Notes under the pieces: generated by a model
Database searches by the model: none
What the model was told of the DNA's origin: nothing
The model's input: the letters and a program-made list of their open reading frames with translations, nothing else
Part shown: one piece after another, positions 10,434 to 32,710 of the stretch
Position numbering within the stretch: position 1 is the first letter of the stretch
Layout: the number at the start of each line of letters is the position of its first letter
Source of the DNA: a virus
IMG/VR virus record: IMGVR_UViG_3300042523_000176
Span: 1 to 32,710 of that record
Length of the DNA: 32,710 bases
Reading direction: 5' to 3' (one strand)
Program-made: the position numbers and the translations under genes

Positions 10434-11612
10434 TTACGCTTCTGTTTTAACATAAGGTTGACCATTCCTTTTAACTTCTAATGTCGGGTCAAGTTTAATC
10501 ATTCGGTCCACAATAACCTGGCAGTACTTAGGGTCGAACTCTACTAAATATCCTTTTCTATTAAGTTGATGTGCAGCTACCATTGTTGTTCCTGAACCGC
10601 CAAATCCGTCTGCAACTATATCTCCTTGCTTACTACTATTACCTATTTGGTATGCTATTAAAGGTATAGGTTTCATAGTAGGGTGTTCTGTATTTCTGCT
10701 TGGTCTATCAAATTCTAATATAGTTGTTTGCTTTCTGTCTGAATACCAGCCGTGAGCAGCTCCCTCTTTCCAACCATATAAACAAGGTTCGTGTCTCCAT
10801 TGGTAATCTTGTCTTCCCATTACCATTGAATTTTTAACCCATATTAAACACTGCTTAACCATTATACCTGAGTTCTTCATCGCAGACCTAAAATTAGCAC
10901 CTTCGCTATCAGCGTGCCAAACATACCAAGCACCACCTGCTTTTGTATAACTTCCTAAAGCGGTATAGAAGTCATAAAGGAATTGATAAAAAGAGTCATC
11001 CGACATACTATCATTTTGAATAGTAAGTGCATCTTTCGTTTTGCCTTCATAAGCTACATTATATGGTGGGTCTGTAACAACTAAATCAGCTAATTGATTT
11101 TCAAATAGTTTTGCAAAAGTATCTGTTTGAGTACTATCGCCACACAATAATCTATGTGGTCCTATTTCAAATAAATCTCCTAATACTATATCCGTTCTTA
11201 AATGTTCAGGTATTTCGTAATCATCTTCTTGTGCTTCATCTTCTGTTTTAAAGCCAGGTATATCTAAACCCCACTCTTCAAGTTCTGATGCATCCCAATT
11301 GTTAGCGAGGTCATCCCAGTCCCACTCTCCATAGCCTACATTGTCTTTAACTATAAATTCCTTTTGCTGCTGCTCGGTTAGTTCACTTGCCTTAATGATT
11401 GGTATCTCTTTAAGTCCTGCTTCTTTACAAGCCTTAAGTCGCATATTGCCACCAAGTACAACCATATCGTCATTTACAACAATAGGTCTAAGGTTTAGCA
11501 TTTGTGGGAACTCGTTAATTGACTTTACAAGCTTTGCAAACTTATCGTCTTTAATTATTCTGGGGTTGTTCGGGTTTGCTTTTACTGTGTTGATTGGTAC
11601 GTTTTGTATCAT
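10434..11612 (-). CDS. ParB-like domain fused to DNA methyltransferase
   Basis: The 392-residue protein starts with a ParB/Srx-like fold (residues 1-90) containing VVLGGNMRLKA at 51-61. An N6-adenine or N4-cytosine methyltransferase follows: catalytic DPPY at 181-184 and the SAM-binding FGGSGTT at 337-343, with HPTMKP at 310-315. Motif IV before motif I indicates the beta-type order. It probably methylates phage DNA against host restriction or to mark it for packaging; the target site cannot be read from sequence. The start overlaps the 73-residue gene upstream by ATGA. No matching restriction endonuclease is evident. Confidence 0.85.
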   Translation of the reverse strand: MIQNVPINTVKANPNNPRIIKDDKFAKLVKSINEFPQMLNLRPIVVNDDMVVLGGNMRLKACKEAGLKEIPIIKASELTEQQQKEFIVKDNVGYGEWDWDDLANNWDASELEEWGLDIPGFKTEDEAQEDDYEIPEHLRTDIVLGDLFEIGPHRLLCGDSTQTDTFAKLFENQLADLVVTDPPYNVAYEGKTKDALTIQNDSMSDDSFYQFLYDFYTALGSYTKAGGAWYVWHADSEGANFRSAMKNSGIMVKQCLIWVKNSMVMGRQDYQWRHEPCLYGWKEGAAHGWYSDRKQTTILEFDRPSRNTEHPTMKPIPLIAYQIGNSSKQGDIVADGFGGSGTTMVAAHQLNRKGYLVEFDPKYCQVIVDRMIKLDPTLEVKRNGQPYVKTEA

Positions 11613-16720: not shown

Positions 16721-17458
16721 TTTTATTTGTTCCTCAAAAAATAAAGCTACTGCAACTGCTCGAGCCTGGTTCTTAAGCCATTGTTCAGTCCATTCGTCTC
16801 GGTACTGCTTTGCGCTTATGATGTCCATTTTATTAGCCTTGTAGGTTATAATCTCCATAAGTTTCTTTTTAGCAAGTGCGCCATCTTCTTTTGTCCATAC
16901 CTTGATGCCTGAACTATTAAGCTTTGTAAATACACTCAATGGGTTAAACAACCTGTCAAAAGTTCGGTTTTCTAACAATTTGTATTCCTGGTAACTGTAA
17001 TCAATTATCTCTAAATCGGTTAAGTGTGGGATTGCTTCTACTCGTTCTTGTGGTATCATTTTTCTTACTTCGTTTGCTTTTTTCTTATATCTGTCCATTA
17101 CCTGACTAAAGTATGCAGGACTAAAGTTTTGGTAGTGGTCTATAAAGTCATTGGCTACCATTTGCTTAAACGCTACTTTGACTTCGTTTATTGTAAACCC
17201 ACCATACTCGGTTCTTATCCAATCTTCTAAAATATCTAATTTAACTTTGTCAGGTATTACATTAATACCAACTAATTGAATTAGGTAAATAATGTTTTGA
17301 TTAAATATGATAGAGTTTAGGCTCCGTATCCGTTCCCCCGAAAAGGCGGTCATAATCTCCTGCTCCATAGGAAGTAGAGTAGATTCTGTTGTGGGCATCA
17401 AGGTTAAATTGTTCCCCTTTTGTAAGTTTGCGTTGATTGTTTGTAGTTCCTTTTGCAT
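16697..17458 (-). CDS. Hypothetical replication-region protein
   Basis: The longest frame has 253 residues; later in-frame ATGs at 17398, 17368 and 17353 are alternatives. It is mostly helical, with EDWIRTEYGGFTINEVKVAF near residues 82-101 followed by FSPAYFSQVMDRYKKKANE, a pattern I associate with proteins next to replication genes in Bacteroidota phages. The start overlaps the DUF1376-like gene by up to 158 bases in another frame. No catalytic motif is evident; a helicase loader or replication accessory role is only a guess. Confidence 0.65.
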   Translation of the reverse strand: MQKELQTINANLQKGNNLTLMPTTESTLLPMEQEIMTAFSGERIRSLNSIIFNQNIIYLIQLVGINVIPDKVKLDILEDWIRTEYGGFTINEVKVAFKQMVANDFIDHYQNFSPAYFSQVMDRYKKKANEVRKMIPQERVEAIPHLTDLEIIDYSYQEYKLLENRTFDRLFNPLSVFTKLNSSGIKVWTKEDGALAKKKLMEIITYKANKMDIISAKQYRDEWTEQWLKNQARAVAVALFFEEQIKFGKVSFS

Positions 17459-18077
17459 CTTCTTTTAAGTTAAATAGTCCTTTCCAACCATTTGCTAAGG
17501 ACTGGTTAATAATTTTAATGGCTATATCTTCGTAACCTTTTGATAAAGTTAATAATTCTTTTAATGCAGCTATTTCGCTTTGTTTTGTTTTGTATGTAAA
17601 CTTAAATTCTTTTTTCTTATAAAACTTAAATTGTTCCCAAGCATCTTTAAACTGATAAGATTCAAAAGGAAGTTCAACTTTTTCTTTATTTACATTAGTA
17701 TTTATATCTTCATTTTCATTTTCATTTACATCTTCCATAAGGTTATGTTTAGCTAAACCTATAGGTTTTGTATTATTTTTAGGTCTACCACCCTTAGAGC
17801 CATTGTTTCTACGGCTTTCAGTAAATTGAATGCGTTTTTCGATTTCTTCTTGTAGCCTTTCATTAAAGAAATTTCCGTCTTTGTCTTTAATAAACTTACT
17901 CAAAACATCAACCGAAACAGAACCTAAAGATAACCTAATGGTTTTGTCGGTAAGTGTACCTTTTTGATGTTGTAAACATAAGAGGGTTATAAATTGTCCT
18001 CTCTCGTCCATTGTTAAGTCAGCTACTCCATTTAGGAAATCGCTGCTATAAAATAGGAATGCAGGGTCTTTTGCCAT
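17301..18077 (-). CDS. DUF1376-like replication protein
   Basis: I start at MAKDPAFLFYSSDFLNGVA (ATG 18077, 258 residues). The N-terminus with ADLTMDERGQFITLLCLQ is the DUF1376 signature, often fused to replication-initiation modules. A low-complexity NENENEDINTNVNKE linker near residues 117-130 joins a C-terminal helical domain with WEQFKFYKKKEFK and QSLANGWKGLFNL. It is likely a winged-helix replication initiator or loader. The ATG lies only five bases beyond the T8 tract of an intrinsic terminator, so expression may depend on attenuation. Confidence 0.75.
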   Translation of the reverse strand: MAKDPAFLFYSSDFLNGVADLTMDERGQFITLLCLQHQKGTLTDKTIRLSLGSVSVDVLSKFIKDKDGNFFNERLQEEIEKRIQFTESRRNNGSKGGRPKNNTKPIGLAKHNLMEDVNENENEDINTNVNKEKVELPFESYQFKDAWEQFKFYKKKEFKFTYKTKQSEIAALKELLTLSKGYEDIAIKIINQSLANGWKGLFNLKEDAKGTTNNQRKLTKGEQFNLDAHNRIYSTSYGAGDYDRLFGGTDTEPKLYHI

Positions 18078-18082
18078 AGTGT

Positions 18083-18123
18083 AAAAAAAAGAAGCCCCCA
18101 ATAGAGTCCAGCTATCAGGGGCT
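18083..18123 (-). terminator. Intrinsic terminator / attenuator before DUF1376-like gene
   Basis: On the minus strand AGCCCC (18123-18118) pairs with GGGGCT (18098-18093) across a 19-base loop, followed by TC and eight T residues (18090-18083). It lies in the leader of the gene starting at 18077, not after a stop codon, so it should act as a conditional terminator or as the end of a short RNA. Confidence 0.6.
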
Positions 18124-18175
18124 ATTATTTAACCACTAAACACATTATCGTCTGGACTTCCGTTAATGTATCTTT
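18083..18175 (-). ncRNA. Candidate attenuator leader with pseudoknot topology (~93 nt)
   Basis: The leader runs from a predicted start near 18175 to the T8 tract. Besides the AGCCCC/GGGGCT stem, the seven bases AGTCCAG at 18158-18152 are fully complementary to CTGGACT at 18111-18105, which lies inside the terminator loop. The order of arms is A, B, A', B', so both helices form an H-type pseudoknot or compete as alternative structures. I do not recognise a named riboswitch. A regulator, ligand or ribosome position could decide read-through into the replication gene. Confidence 0.45.
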
Positions 18176-18178
18176 TTA

Positions 18179-18208
18179 CAAATATAAACTAATTTTCCGT
18201 AATTTCAA
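18179..18208 (-). promoter_or_regulatory. Promoter for replication protein leader
   Basis: TATATTTG on the minus strand (18186-18179) matches the TAnnTTTG consensus exactly. A weak TTG at 18208-18206 lies 19 bases upstream as a possible -33 element. The promoter overlaps the stop end of the DnaA-like gene and precedes the structured leader. Confidence 0.6.
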
Positions 18209-18617
18209 TTTTTTGACAAATTCTTTTCATTTTGTCCTTAAACCAATCTTCCGTGTCTATTAGGTTATTTGCTTGTTTGATATTGTGAATTGCGGTCGTA
18301 TGGTCTTTAGTTCCGGTGTATGCGCTTATCTCTTTTAGGTTTAATTTGGTGTACCTTCTAAGTAAATACGCAGCAGCTTTTCGACCGAAGGTTGTTCTTA
18401 AAGACCTATCCCTTCTTGATATATCGCATTCAAATGCTTCTTCTACTAATTTTACGATGCTTCTCGCACCTATATCCGCACCTAAAGGCTCGTTATCTTC
18501 TATGCCTAACAACCCTAATTGCGACATCATTTCGTGCAACTTTGCGTGGGTATTACGTTGAGCATAATATAACTCCTTTAACTGTCTTATTGAAACATCT
18601 CTATTTTTAGTTAGCAT
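18189..18617 (-). CDS. Stand-alone DnaA domain IV-like DNA-binding protein
   Basis: The 142-residue protein ends in a DnaA C-terminal domain: GRKAAAYLLRRYTKLNLKEI (79-97) and the signature KDHTTAIHNI at 104-113, matching the GRDHTTVxHA box that contacts DnaA boxes. There is no AAA+ ATPase domain. The N-terminal 65 residues are helical. It could direct the host replisome to the phage origin, compete with host DnaA, or regulate transcription. It ends the early operon just before the DUF1376-like gene. Confidence 0.8.
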   Translation of the reverse strand: MLTKNRDVSIRQLKELYYAQRNTHAKLHEMMSQLGLLGIEDNEPLGADIGARSIVKLVEEAFECDISRRDRSLRTTFGRKAAAYLLRRYTKLNLKEISAYTGTKDHTTAIHNIKQANNLIDTEDWFKDKMKRICQKIEITEN

Positions 18618-31643: not shown

Positions 31644-32597
31644 TTATGCAAGGATAAACTTCACTACTTCGTCAGGGAAGGCAATGTTTACACCCATCTT
31701 AAATTCAGATACAAATCTAATTTCATCACTTTCTTTTGCGAAGAAAATTTCGTAGCGTTCTTCACCATTAAGTAGGTCTGTACCCAAGAACATATTAGAT
31801 AAACGCATAGCGTAAACTTTATTAGTTCCGTTAAGACCTGCAACTGCTACAACTTTAATTGAAGTACCTGGTAATACAAATTCGCTATCAGCTTTTACAT
31901 CAATTTGATAATTGAAACTACCGCTATTCTTAAGAGCAACAGTATAAGTACGGAACAAATCTTGACCGCAGAAGATAGTCATATCGTCAGCAGCTACAAC
32001 TTGTGCAGGGATTGCTTGGTAAACACCATCAAAGATAGAAATTACGTTAGCAGCAGTAATGCTTGATAAAGGAGCACCACTAATGTAAGTTGAAGCGTTT
32101 GCAGCAACAACACCTGAAGCAGCACCGATTAACTTAACAAGACCATCGAACTTGTTTAAATTTACGTTTACACTTGAAGTGTCCCCTTGCCATAAAGAAG
32201 TTTCTAATTGAGCAGCAATAGTAACCGCTTTCTTTTCAGAATACTCTTGCTCAAAAGGAATAGAGTCATAATAAGACCCTGTTGGTAAAGCTTTCTGAAG
32301 GTACTTTGCTTCTAAATTTTTAGGGCAAAGAGCTTCGTTAATTTTAATCTTACCAGGAGTTACAGTACGTTGAGTAAAAGTTGTAGAGCCAGAAGCAGAA
32401 AAACCACAAGCAGCACCATCTTGGAAGATAGCGTCAGTTTGCATAATGTTAATCTTCTCGCTTGACTTTACGCCAACCATTACGTTACCTGCGCTCTTAA
32501 TAAGAGAAGCAGTTTTTGCACCCAATACAGATGAAGTTACAAGTAGAGCTTCGTTTTCTTTTGTATAGTTTGCTAATGCAGATACATCAAATCCCAT
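31644..32597 (-). CDS. Major capsid protein
   Basis: The 317-residue protein (MGFDVSALANYTKENEALLV) contains FQDGAACGFSASGSTTFTQR near residues 58-77, followed by IKINEALCPKNLEAKYLQ, a segment typical of HK97-fold capsid proteins of Bacteroidota phages. The centre has VVAADDMTIFCGQDLFRTY and the end EIRFVSEFKMGVNIAFPDEV. It is preceded in transcription by protease and scaffold genes across the junction and followed by a terminator. The ATG lies within the terminal repeat. Confidence 0.9.
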   Translation of the reverse strand: MGFDVSALANYTKENEALLVTSSVLGAKTASLIKSAGNVMVGVKSSEKINIMQTDAIFQDGAACGFSASGSTTFTQRTVTPGKIKINEALCPKNLEAKYLQKALPTGSYYDSIPFEQEYSEKKAVTIAAQLETSLWQGDTSSVNVNLNKFDGLVKLIGAASGVVAANASTYISGAPLSSITAANVISIFDGVYQAIPAQVVAADDMTIFCGQDLFRTYTVALKNSGSFNYQIDVKADSEFVLPGTSIKVVAVAGLNGTNKVYAMRLSNMFLGTDLLNGEERYEIFFAKESDEIRFVSEFKMGVNIAFPDEVVKFILA

Positions 32598-32710
32598 TTT
32601 ATTTTATTTTTATTTGTTTAATAAAGCGTTTCTAAATTTTTCTAATCTTTCGTACTTCATTGCGTGTGTAGTAACGTTAGCAGAAAAGTTGTTTTTTGGT
32701 TGCGCAATAG
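32584..32710. repeat. Terminal direct repeat, right copy (circular junction)
   Basis: These 127 bases repeat window positions 1-127 exactly. Removing one copy gives a circle of 32,583 bp in which the scaffold, capsid and flanking genes read without interruption. Confidence 0.95.
32610..32710 (-). CDS. Scaffold protein, 3' fragment (duplicate of gene at 27-617)
   Basis: This is the C-terminal coding end of the putative scaffold, repeated because of the circular overlap. It ends 12 bases before the capsid ATG and is not a separate gene. Confidence 0.85.
   Translation of the reverse strand, partial: IAQPKNNFSANVTTHAMKYERLEKFRNALLNK

Follow-up and report, generated by a model that had tools for sequence, protein, structure and literature searches.

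Attenuation controls a rep gene in plasmid pT181. Among enterobacterial phages, the CI RNA of P4 and the C4 RNAs of P1 and P7 belong to long leaders that end early, before the replication functions, through pairing that acts in trans. In attenuators of the trp and tnaC type, control is exerted by the ribosome. Long-range loop pairing within compact leaders is found in pseudoknot riboswitches and purine-type aptamers, and in the packaging RNA of phi29 two hairpin loops kiss, with matched sequence changes.

The phage leader described here resembles each of these systems in part. It is closest in its proposed working to pT181, with which it shares a kissing hairpin in a rep-gene leader and, as we propose, attenuation of transcription; the pT181 hairpin, however, has a separate antisense RNA as its partner and works with an antiterminator sequence, whereas the phage leader carries both loops in one RNA and no antiterminator was seen in it. 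The P4 CI and C4 RNAs provide the precedent of a phage leader but pair in trans, and the present leader has no Rfam match. As in trp and tnaC attenuators, a short ORF, here a putative one, ends beside or inside a terminator hairpin, but the phage leader has no run of regulatory codons, and a loop–loop contact stands in place of competing hairpins. It differs from the riboswitches in that the pairing partner is the terminator loop and in that its three families have no stretch in common that could serve as a ligand pocket, and from the phi29 RNA in that the latter contact is intermolecular, with another function at another place in the genome. An excerpt of one report describes the kissing hairpin of the pT181 transcription attenuator (PMC3753616), and in an excerpt of another the c4 antisense RNA is RF01695 (PMC2864571).

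A search of Rfam 15 with the whole window, as we call the complete stretch of 32,710 nucleotides analysed, gave no hit at gathering score and, near the leader, five sub-threshold hits up to an E-value of 10; ten further loci, most of them with other leaders, gave none. No description of such leaders appears among the matches listed from the open-access literature, a search that covered abstract openings and outside which subscription journals and preprints lie. Phage-linked RNA candidates, some of them from Bacteroidetes, are reported in PMC8040213, whose excerpt contains neither the word kissing nor pseudoknot.

Results

A predicted loop–loop contact in front of the replication gene

The window is virus record IMGVR_UViG_3300042523_000176, with the leader on its minus strand (Table 1). 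Its two ends form a perfect terminal direct repeat of 127 bp (positions 1–127 are identical to 32584–32710), so the 32.7-kb phage genome is probably complete; the host is probably a member of the Bacteroidetes. The gene behind the leader matches PHROGs families of primosomal and O-like initiation proteins, which agrees with its designation as a replication gene in a preliminary description of this locus; its match to PF07120 (DUF1376) is weak (E-value of 0.00054, 20.7 bits, under the cut-off of 30.1). On the other side, the stop codon of a gene with a DnaA domain adjoins the promoter element TATATTTG. Elsewhere in the window, positions 10434–11612 hold a gene in which ParB-like and DNA methyltransferase parts are fused, as judged by PHROGs.

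The element TATATTTG is of the Bacteroidetes promoter type. It is preceded, at a spacing of 19 nt, by ATTG/TTG (18208–18206), which resembles a −33 element, and the family 1 relatives inspected (see below) have TATATTTG or TATATTCG at the same place. A scan for sigma-70-type promoters found one plus-strand site (18277–18304), which reads away from the leader.

Promoter, AGTCCAG, its complement CTGGACT, terminator hairpin, T8 and ATG all lie on the minus strand where the preliminary description had placed them. It had missed that AGTCCAG lies in the loop of a 12-bp hairpin (H1, 18173–18138), hence the contact is one between two loops. Because AGTCCAG lies in this loop and its complement is the whole loop of the terminator hairpin (H2), H1 and H2 can kiss; and since the kiss occupies exactly the terminator loop, kiss and closed terminator can coexist. 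In the window, H2 has the make-up of an intrinsic terminator, in which a T tract follows a G+C-rich hairpin ahead of a coding region; it is the only terminator-like site found between 17900 and 18400, and the same layout is found in the family 1 and family 2 alignments. The replication-gene ATG, at 18077, lies five bases past T8. Pseudoknot-free folding supports both hairpins of the window leader, with z-scores of −2.75 (95 nt) and −3.26 (terminator alone).

Table 1. Leader elements and flanking genes, in coordinates of the window
Feature	Position	Strand	Remarks
Upstream gene with DnaA C-terminal (DNA-binding) domain	18189..18617	-	PF08299, E-value of 3.1e-11
−7 promoter element TATATTTG, Bacteroidetes-type	18179..18186	-	read directly in the sequence
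Hairpin H1	18138..18173	-	10 + 2 pairs around a 1x1 mismatch, 10-nt loop; fold and RNAalifold consensus
Segment A, AGTCCAG	18152..18158	-	within the H1 loop; covariation of the kissing helix
Short leader ORF, ATG TGT TTA GTG GTT AAA TAA (MCLVVK*)	18125..18145	-	predicted; stop 1 nt before H2
Linker, 14 nt	18124..18137	-	makes up the 19-mer ATGTGTTTAGTGGTTAAAT together with the H1 3′ arm
Hairpin H2, intrinsic-terminator type	18093..18123	-	12 pairs, −17.0 kcal/mol; fold and terminator scan
Segment A′, CTGGACT	18105..18111	-	the entire 7-nt H2 loop; family 1 loop comparison
Terminator tract, TC + T8	18083..18092	-	T8 at 18090–18083; ends 5 nt before the ATG
Downstream gene, DUF1376-like/primosomal, replication-initiation O-like	17301..18077	-	258 aa; Pfam and PHROGs matches

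The same loop–loop layout arises in 16 of 1,000 shuffles of the window leader. A scan of the whole window for it is unspecific (10 hits, against 1–14 in shuffles) and missed the true leader because of the mismatch in H1. A second copy of the leader, or repeats of its linker or loops elsewhere in the window, were sought and none was found clearly beyond chance.

A switch between terminator and anti-terminator, one of two readings first put forward, finds no counterpart here, the kiss using exactly the terminator loop and little of the upstream leader pairing with either arm of H2. Across family 1 (62 of 63 rows scored) no antiterminator was seen upstream of H2: the longest upstream complements reach 4–6 nt for the 5′ arm and up to 8 nt for the 3′ arm. 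In the window, 4 nt pair with the 5′ arm, and an 8-mer pairs with the 3′ arm through five G–U pairs among others.

Matched changes in the two loops of family 1

Family 1 leaders were collected by a protein search combined with a sequence-pattern search. Of the 80 loci kept from the IMG/VR protein search, 74 contain the leader core in exact form. The six exceptions are L043–L045, where an HNH-type gene is preceded by a family 2 leader; L048, which shares a contig with the divergent leader L366; and L047 and L050, which start within the gene. Alignment A1, for which the exact 17-nt core and full flanks were required, comprises 63 distinct leaders of 96 nt from at least 154 occurrences.

A perfect 7-bp kiss can form in 62 of the 63 distinct leaders, in six versions: CTGCGAA/TTCGCAG (n=18), AGTCCAG/CTGGACT (n=13), AGTCGAG/CTCGACT (n=9), GTACGAA/TTCGTAC (n=9), GAGCGAA/TTCGCTC (n=8) and CTACGAA/TTCGTAG (n=5). 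The remaining leader is of a mixed version with a single A–C mismatch. Counted over the alignment, 440 of 441 kissing cells are paired, and five of the seven pairs show double changes, the compensatory changes among relatives that the preliminary description had proposed as a test of the 7-bp helix. The covariation score of the kiss is 0.360 against 0.150 in shuffles (reached by none of 500), and slid registers score 0.092 at most. Two of the five measures applied to family 1 are not apart from shuffles (double-changed pairs, 28/500; further pair types, 500/500). Because cells count related sequences rather than events, the six matched versions are the safest statement of the result. In the same alignment, 99.5% of H1 cells are paired, with double changes at three pairs, and 92.5% of H2 cells, with double changes at four; covariation thus establishes H1, H2 and the kiss.

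The alignment also delimits the kissing helix. Columns 19 and 76, by which it would be lengthened into the H2 stem, hold A and C in every row, so the helix ends at the loop edge on that side. On the opposite side a C27–G68 pair is possible in many rows, yet G68 pairs within H2. Such limits are what should be expected of a kiss compatible with a closed terminator.

The same layout in unrelated leaders

In L043–L045 a different leader stands before the inserted HNH-type gene, AGAAT[GTACGAG]ATTCT followed by a hairpin with the loop CTCGTAC. A search with the replication protein of L043 type, of which the best 80 of 243 loci were used, yielded 70 upstream regions (69 of those 80 loci and the region before the inserted gene of L043), and 53 of these contain a 7-nt loop–loop match in the right layout. 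The layout is missing directly before the replication gene in 17 regions, in five of which (L487–L489, L526 and L538) it stands before an inserted gene instead. When 14 representatives of families 1 and 2 are shuffled, 0.3–2.2% of the shuffles show the layout. The family 2 alignment, A4, consists of 23 of the 36 distinct leaders and L490; ten were omitted as near duplicates by eye, and L536, L537 and L548 on account of their poor alignment. The loops of these last three are perfectly complementary. In the 24 leaders of A4 all 168 kissing cells are paired, double changes occur at three of seven kissing pairs and 13 of 22 pairs in total, and the covariation score is 0.463 against 0.173 in shuffles (0/500).

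A third family emerged from a search with the L548 protein (best 80 of 96 loci used) and comprises 20 distinct leaders out of 24 occurrences, for whose selection start, promoter and one string were used. In family 3 the 5′ segment lies outside any hairpin and forms a 9-bp pairing with part of the downstream hairpin; all 175 cells scored are paired (five gapped cells set aside), six of nine pairs are double-changed, and the score is 0.529 against 0.201 in shuffles (0/500). Its T tracts are weak. The pair-type measure is not apart from shuffles in family 2 (450/500) or family 3 (207/500).

The A-B-A′-B′ order of pairing arms first noticed in the window is thus real and conserved in all three families. 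The H-type pseudoknot that had been drawn from it fits family 3, where the 5′ segment is in no hairpin; for families 1 and 2 a pseudoknot with a free 5′ strand was rejected, segment A fitting into a hairpin loop. The recurrence of the layout in leaders without sequence relationship is likewise shown by covariation. The family 1 covariance model, R1, matched none of the family 2 and 3 examples tried (L494, L536, L537 and L548 included), and the linkers of families 2 and 3 are quite different from that of family 1, with no linker sequence in common. Pseudoknot-free folding closes extra pairs in the H1 loop of L494 and in the H2 loop of L536, and the best fold of L548 is one without H1.

Beyond these alignments, 157 upstream regions were pooled, some of them leaderless; 90 have a promoter motif at a fitting distance and reduce to 18 non-redundant leaders. 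A 5′–3′ complement reaches p≤0.05 in 10 of the 18 and lies under 0.1 in 15, where about 1 and 2 are expected, with several of the 18 still distant relatives and the pairing scored in L608 being a hairpin stem and not A–A′. The same test without the promoter requirement is weaker (13/59 at p≤0.05, some matches being hairpin stems). L602, L644, L622 and L619 are suggestive single examples of the predicted layout. L553, L555, L556, L558, L559, L597 and L600 have possible shorter or shifted pairings and are kept outside the member counts, and no leader can be recognised at further relatives of the gene (L542, L545, L550–L552, L562 and L563 among others).

Counted by hand, families 1 and 2 each have a linker of 14 nt and a coaxial stack of H1, kiss and H2 of ~31–32 rows, composed of 12–13+7+12 in family 1 and of 5+7+20 in family 2. 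The linker would therefore run nearly stretched along the stack, which would fit a contact in cis.

An invariant linker and a short leader reading frame

The 19-mer ATGTGTTTAGTGGTTAAAT has a diversity of 0.00–0.01, whereas third codon positions in the upstream gene reach 0.341 (109 regions, selected by 17 of the 19 ATGTGTTTAGTGGTTAAAT letters). This invariance was not created by the filter, since 74 of the 80 unfiltered loci hold the core. The H1 5′ arm varies against ATGTGTTTAGTGGTTAAAT, with G–U pairs and a few mismatches; as it changes against a fixed strand, that strand must have a duty beyond pairing.

Part of this duty may be coding. The putative ORF MCLVVK* is encoded in 62 of the 63 aligned family 1 leaders and is altered in L080, L334 and L366 (ATG TTT TAG in L366). 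The mini-ORF as the sole cause of the invariant linker is not supported, synonymous sites being fixed as well and the three loci just named altering the ORF. Mimicry of a tRNA D-arm by AGTGGTTA was also considered and rejected: several pattern matches resemble tRNA genes by eye, and the stem is lost in L366 and L446.

Another duty could be binding, the family 1 linker UUUAGUGGUUAARY forming a site for a ligand or protein, framed by the kissed hairpins as in aptamers with loop–loop contacts; the ligand would then set read-through in place of a ribosome. The near absence of diversity in the linker would suit such a sensor, as would L446 (210–305), on a contig with other genes, which has the family 1 linker and terminator and no kissing loops (cmsearch E-value of 0.0018). 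Families 2 and 3, however, share the layout despite quite different linkers, and the absence of an Rfam match at gathering score also counts against a sensor, which we regard as improbable. The L446 element precedes a short gene without assigned function.

Leader ORFs are also found in the other families. In family 3 one is retained in 20 of 20 leaders, with varying residues (MKNILNPTITALP type); in L607–L640, upstream of a DUF1376 gene, a conserved 13-residue ORF of MKNILNPTITALP type directly follows the pairing segment. The ORFs of L548 and L599, of 37 and 31 codons, cross the hairpin to the replication start, and 10 of the 24 family 2 leaders have only ATG–TAG. Of 16 leaders (16 of the 18 non-redundant ones, L643 and L646 being omitted), 15 have a start codon within segment A or immediately 3′ of it, against 7.7 in mononucleotide shuffles (0/2,000), for a window chosen post hoc and with some related rows; in the phage studied here it sits in the H1 3′ arm. 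With the start codon at segment A, translation initiation at the short ORF and formation of the kiss would be in competition.

Position, insertions and reassortment

The leader abuts the first gene in 154 of 154 family 1 occurrences among the matches listed. It stays in front when a gene has been inserted, HNH (PF01844) in L046 and GIY-YIG in L083 by Pfam, and likewise in two family 2 loci with other inserted genes. The site right between leader and replication gene looks like an insertion hotspot (L046, L083, L134, L526 and L538, the latter three by look). The replication proteins themselves have a conserved C-terminus, and their N-terminal parts are exchanged behind the same leader; the exchanged parts are two DUF1376 versions, Lin1244_N and one unassigned type beginning with MAKRFTDTEKW.

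This position bears on the possibility that the kiss is a clamp that protects a constitutive phage small RNA, or exposes its seed, while the replication gene is read from upstream and little affected. The RNA would be compact, with both ends paired, and an invariant stretch separates its hairpins. Against it stand the position of the leader, directly at the start codon of the first gene throughout family 1 and also in the family 2 regions counted, and the lack of a linker sequence common to family 1 and families 2 and 3; such a clamp seems quite unlikely.

Least probable, and very unlikely, is an element of the DNA itself, the inverted repeats of an origin or of a recombination site. A neighbouring gene with a DnaA domain, reassortment at the leader and the endonuclease genes inserted there would be in keeping with it; the G–U pairs, the one-sided G–C/G–U changes and the stems covarying around loops speak for RNA, as does a terminator T tract on one strand.

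The loop versions have been reassorted relative to the upstream gene: parsimony on one quick tree of 109 rows requires 55 changes or more. They differ in 46 of 93 gene pairs at 1–3% divergence and in 1 of 10 pairs within 1%. A good number of these changes must stem from recombination, so they do not count as independent origins of new pairs.

Control in trans would give such versions a meaning: a terminated leader RNA, being diffusible, would kiss the nascent leaders of other genome copies or of a superinfecting relative and so limit replication-protein synthesis, as copy control or superinfection immunity in the manner of pT181 or phage P4, with the loop versions as specificity groups. The loops vary in matched versions while the linker is nearly fixed, and the versions reassort relative to the upstream gene, though those of close pairs (1 of 10 within 1%) rarely differ; kissing attenuation is moreover known for the pT181 rep system, from the excerpt of PMC3753616. 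However, both partners lie in one RNA, and the linker length seems matched to the stack in two unrelated families (14 nt, hand count), which control in trans would not need. A search for tyrosine integrases gave no match in the genome, which looks complete, so there is no obvious case for lysogenic immunity. We consider control in trans rather unlikely.

Outside the IMG/VR loci, the linker-plus-CCC pattern occurs in none of 395 Bacteroidota genomes, and a scan of genome contigs showed flanking hairpins, by eye, in none of 80 loci among the matches listed; in one of them, L238, a terminator-like hairpin follows further on. Annotated phage records gave only partial matches in the DNA search (E-values of at least 0.4 among the matches listed), and with the window protein the sole match was MT837034, which has no such leader upstream; four more annotated phage records match the L494 protein in part.

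Discussion

The reading we prefer, and to which we give about an even chance, is that the leader attenuates replication-protein synthesis in cis, the kissed and terminated form being the default and a ribosome on the leader ORF the probable opener. Covariation supports its structure; termination, regulation, the assignment of OFF and ON states and the ribosome as opener are our inference. Transcription would start just after TATATTTG, and H1 would fold first; as H2 emerges, its 7-nt loop would dock onto the loop of H1, and the kiss would tie the 5′ end, with the leader start codon, to the closed terminator. In this OFF state most transcripts would end as an RNA of ~93 nt just before the ATG, the ON state being read-through into the replication gene.

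A kissed and terminated default with a ribosome as opener was chosen because of the start codons at segment A and the leader ORFs that are kept. A ribosome initiating on the short ORF would push aside both H1 and the kiss, and once at the stop codon, beside the H2 base, it would mask the terminator's 5′ arm; synthesis of the replication protein would then reflect the cell's translational state. The ribosome is the most likely opener, and the opener is the weakest link of the mechanism. The family 2 leaders with only ATG–TAG do not fit the stop-codon step, because they would hold an initiating ribosome and not one near H2.

Compensatory changes have preserved the pairing in three leader families of different sequence, each standing before a gene of the same kind, and this means strong selection. 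The conservation of this pairing across leaders unrelated in sequence points to an undescribed control device for phage replication. More tentatively, the leaders may represent a general class in Bacteroidetes phages, in which a 5′ segment bearing a start codon must match the terminator loop and this pairing rule is inherited while there is complete turnover of sequence, hairpins and even linker; replication would wait for a translating ribosome, and the loop versions may be specificity groups between co-infecting phages. For synthetic use, the leader offers a natural design for a kissing attenuator made of one RNA. For the little-studied phages of environmental Bacteroidetes, it provides a testable model of how replication may be timed.
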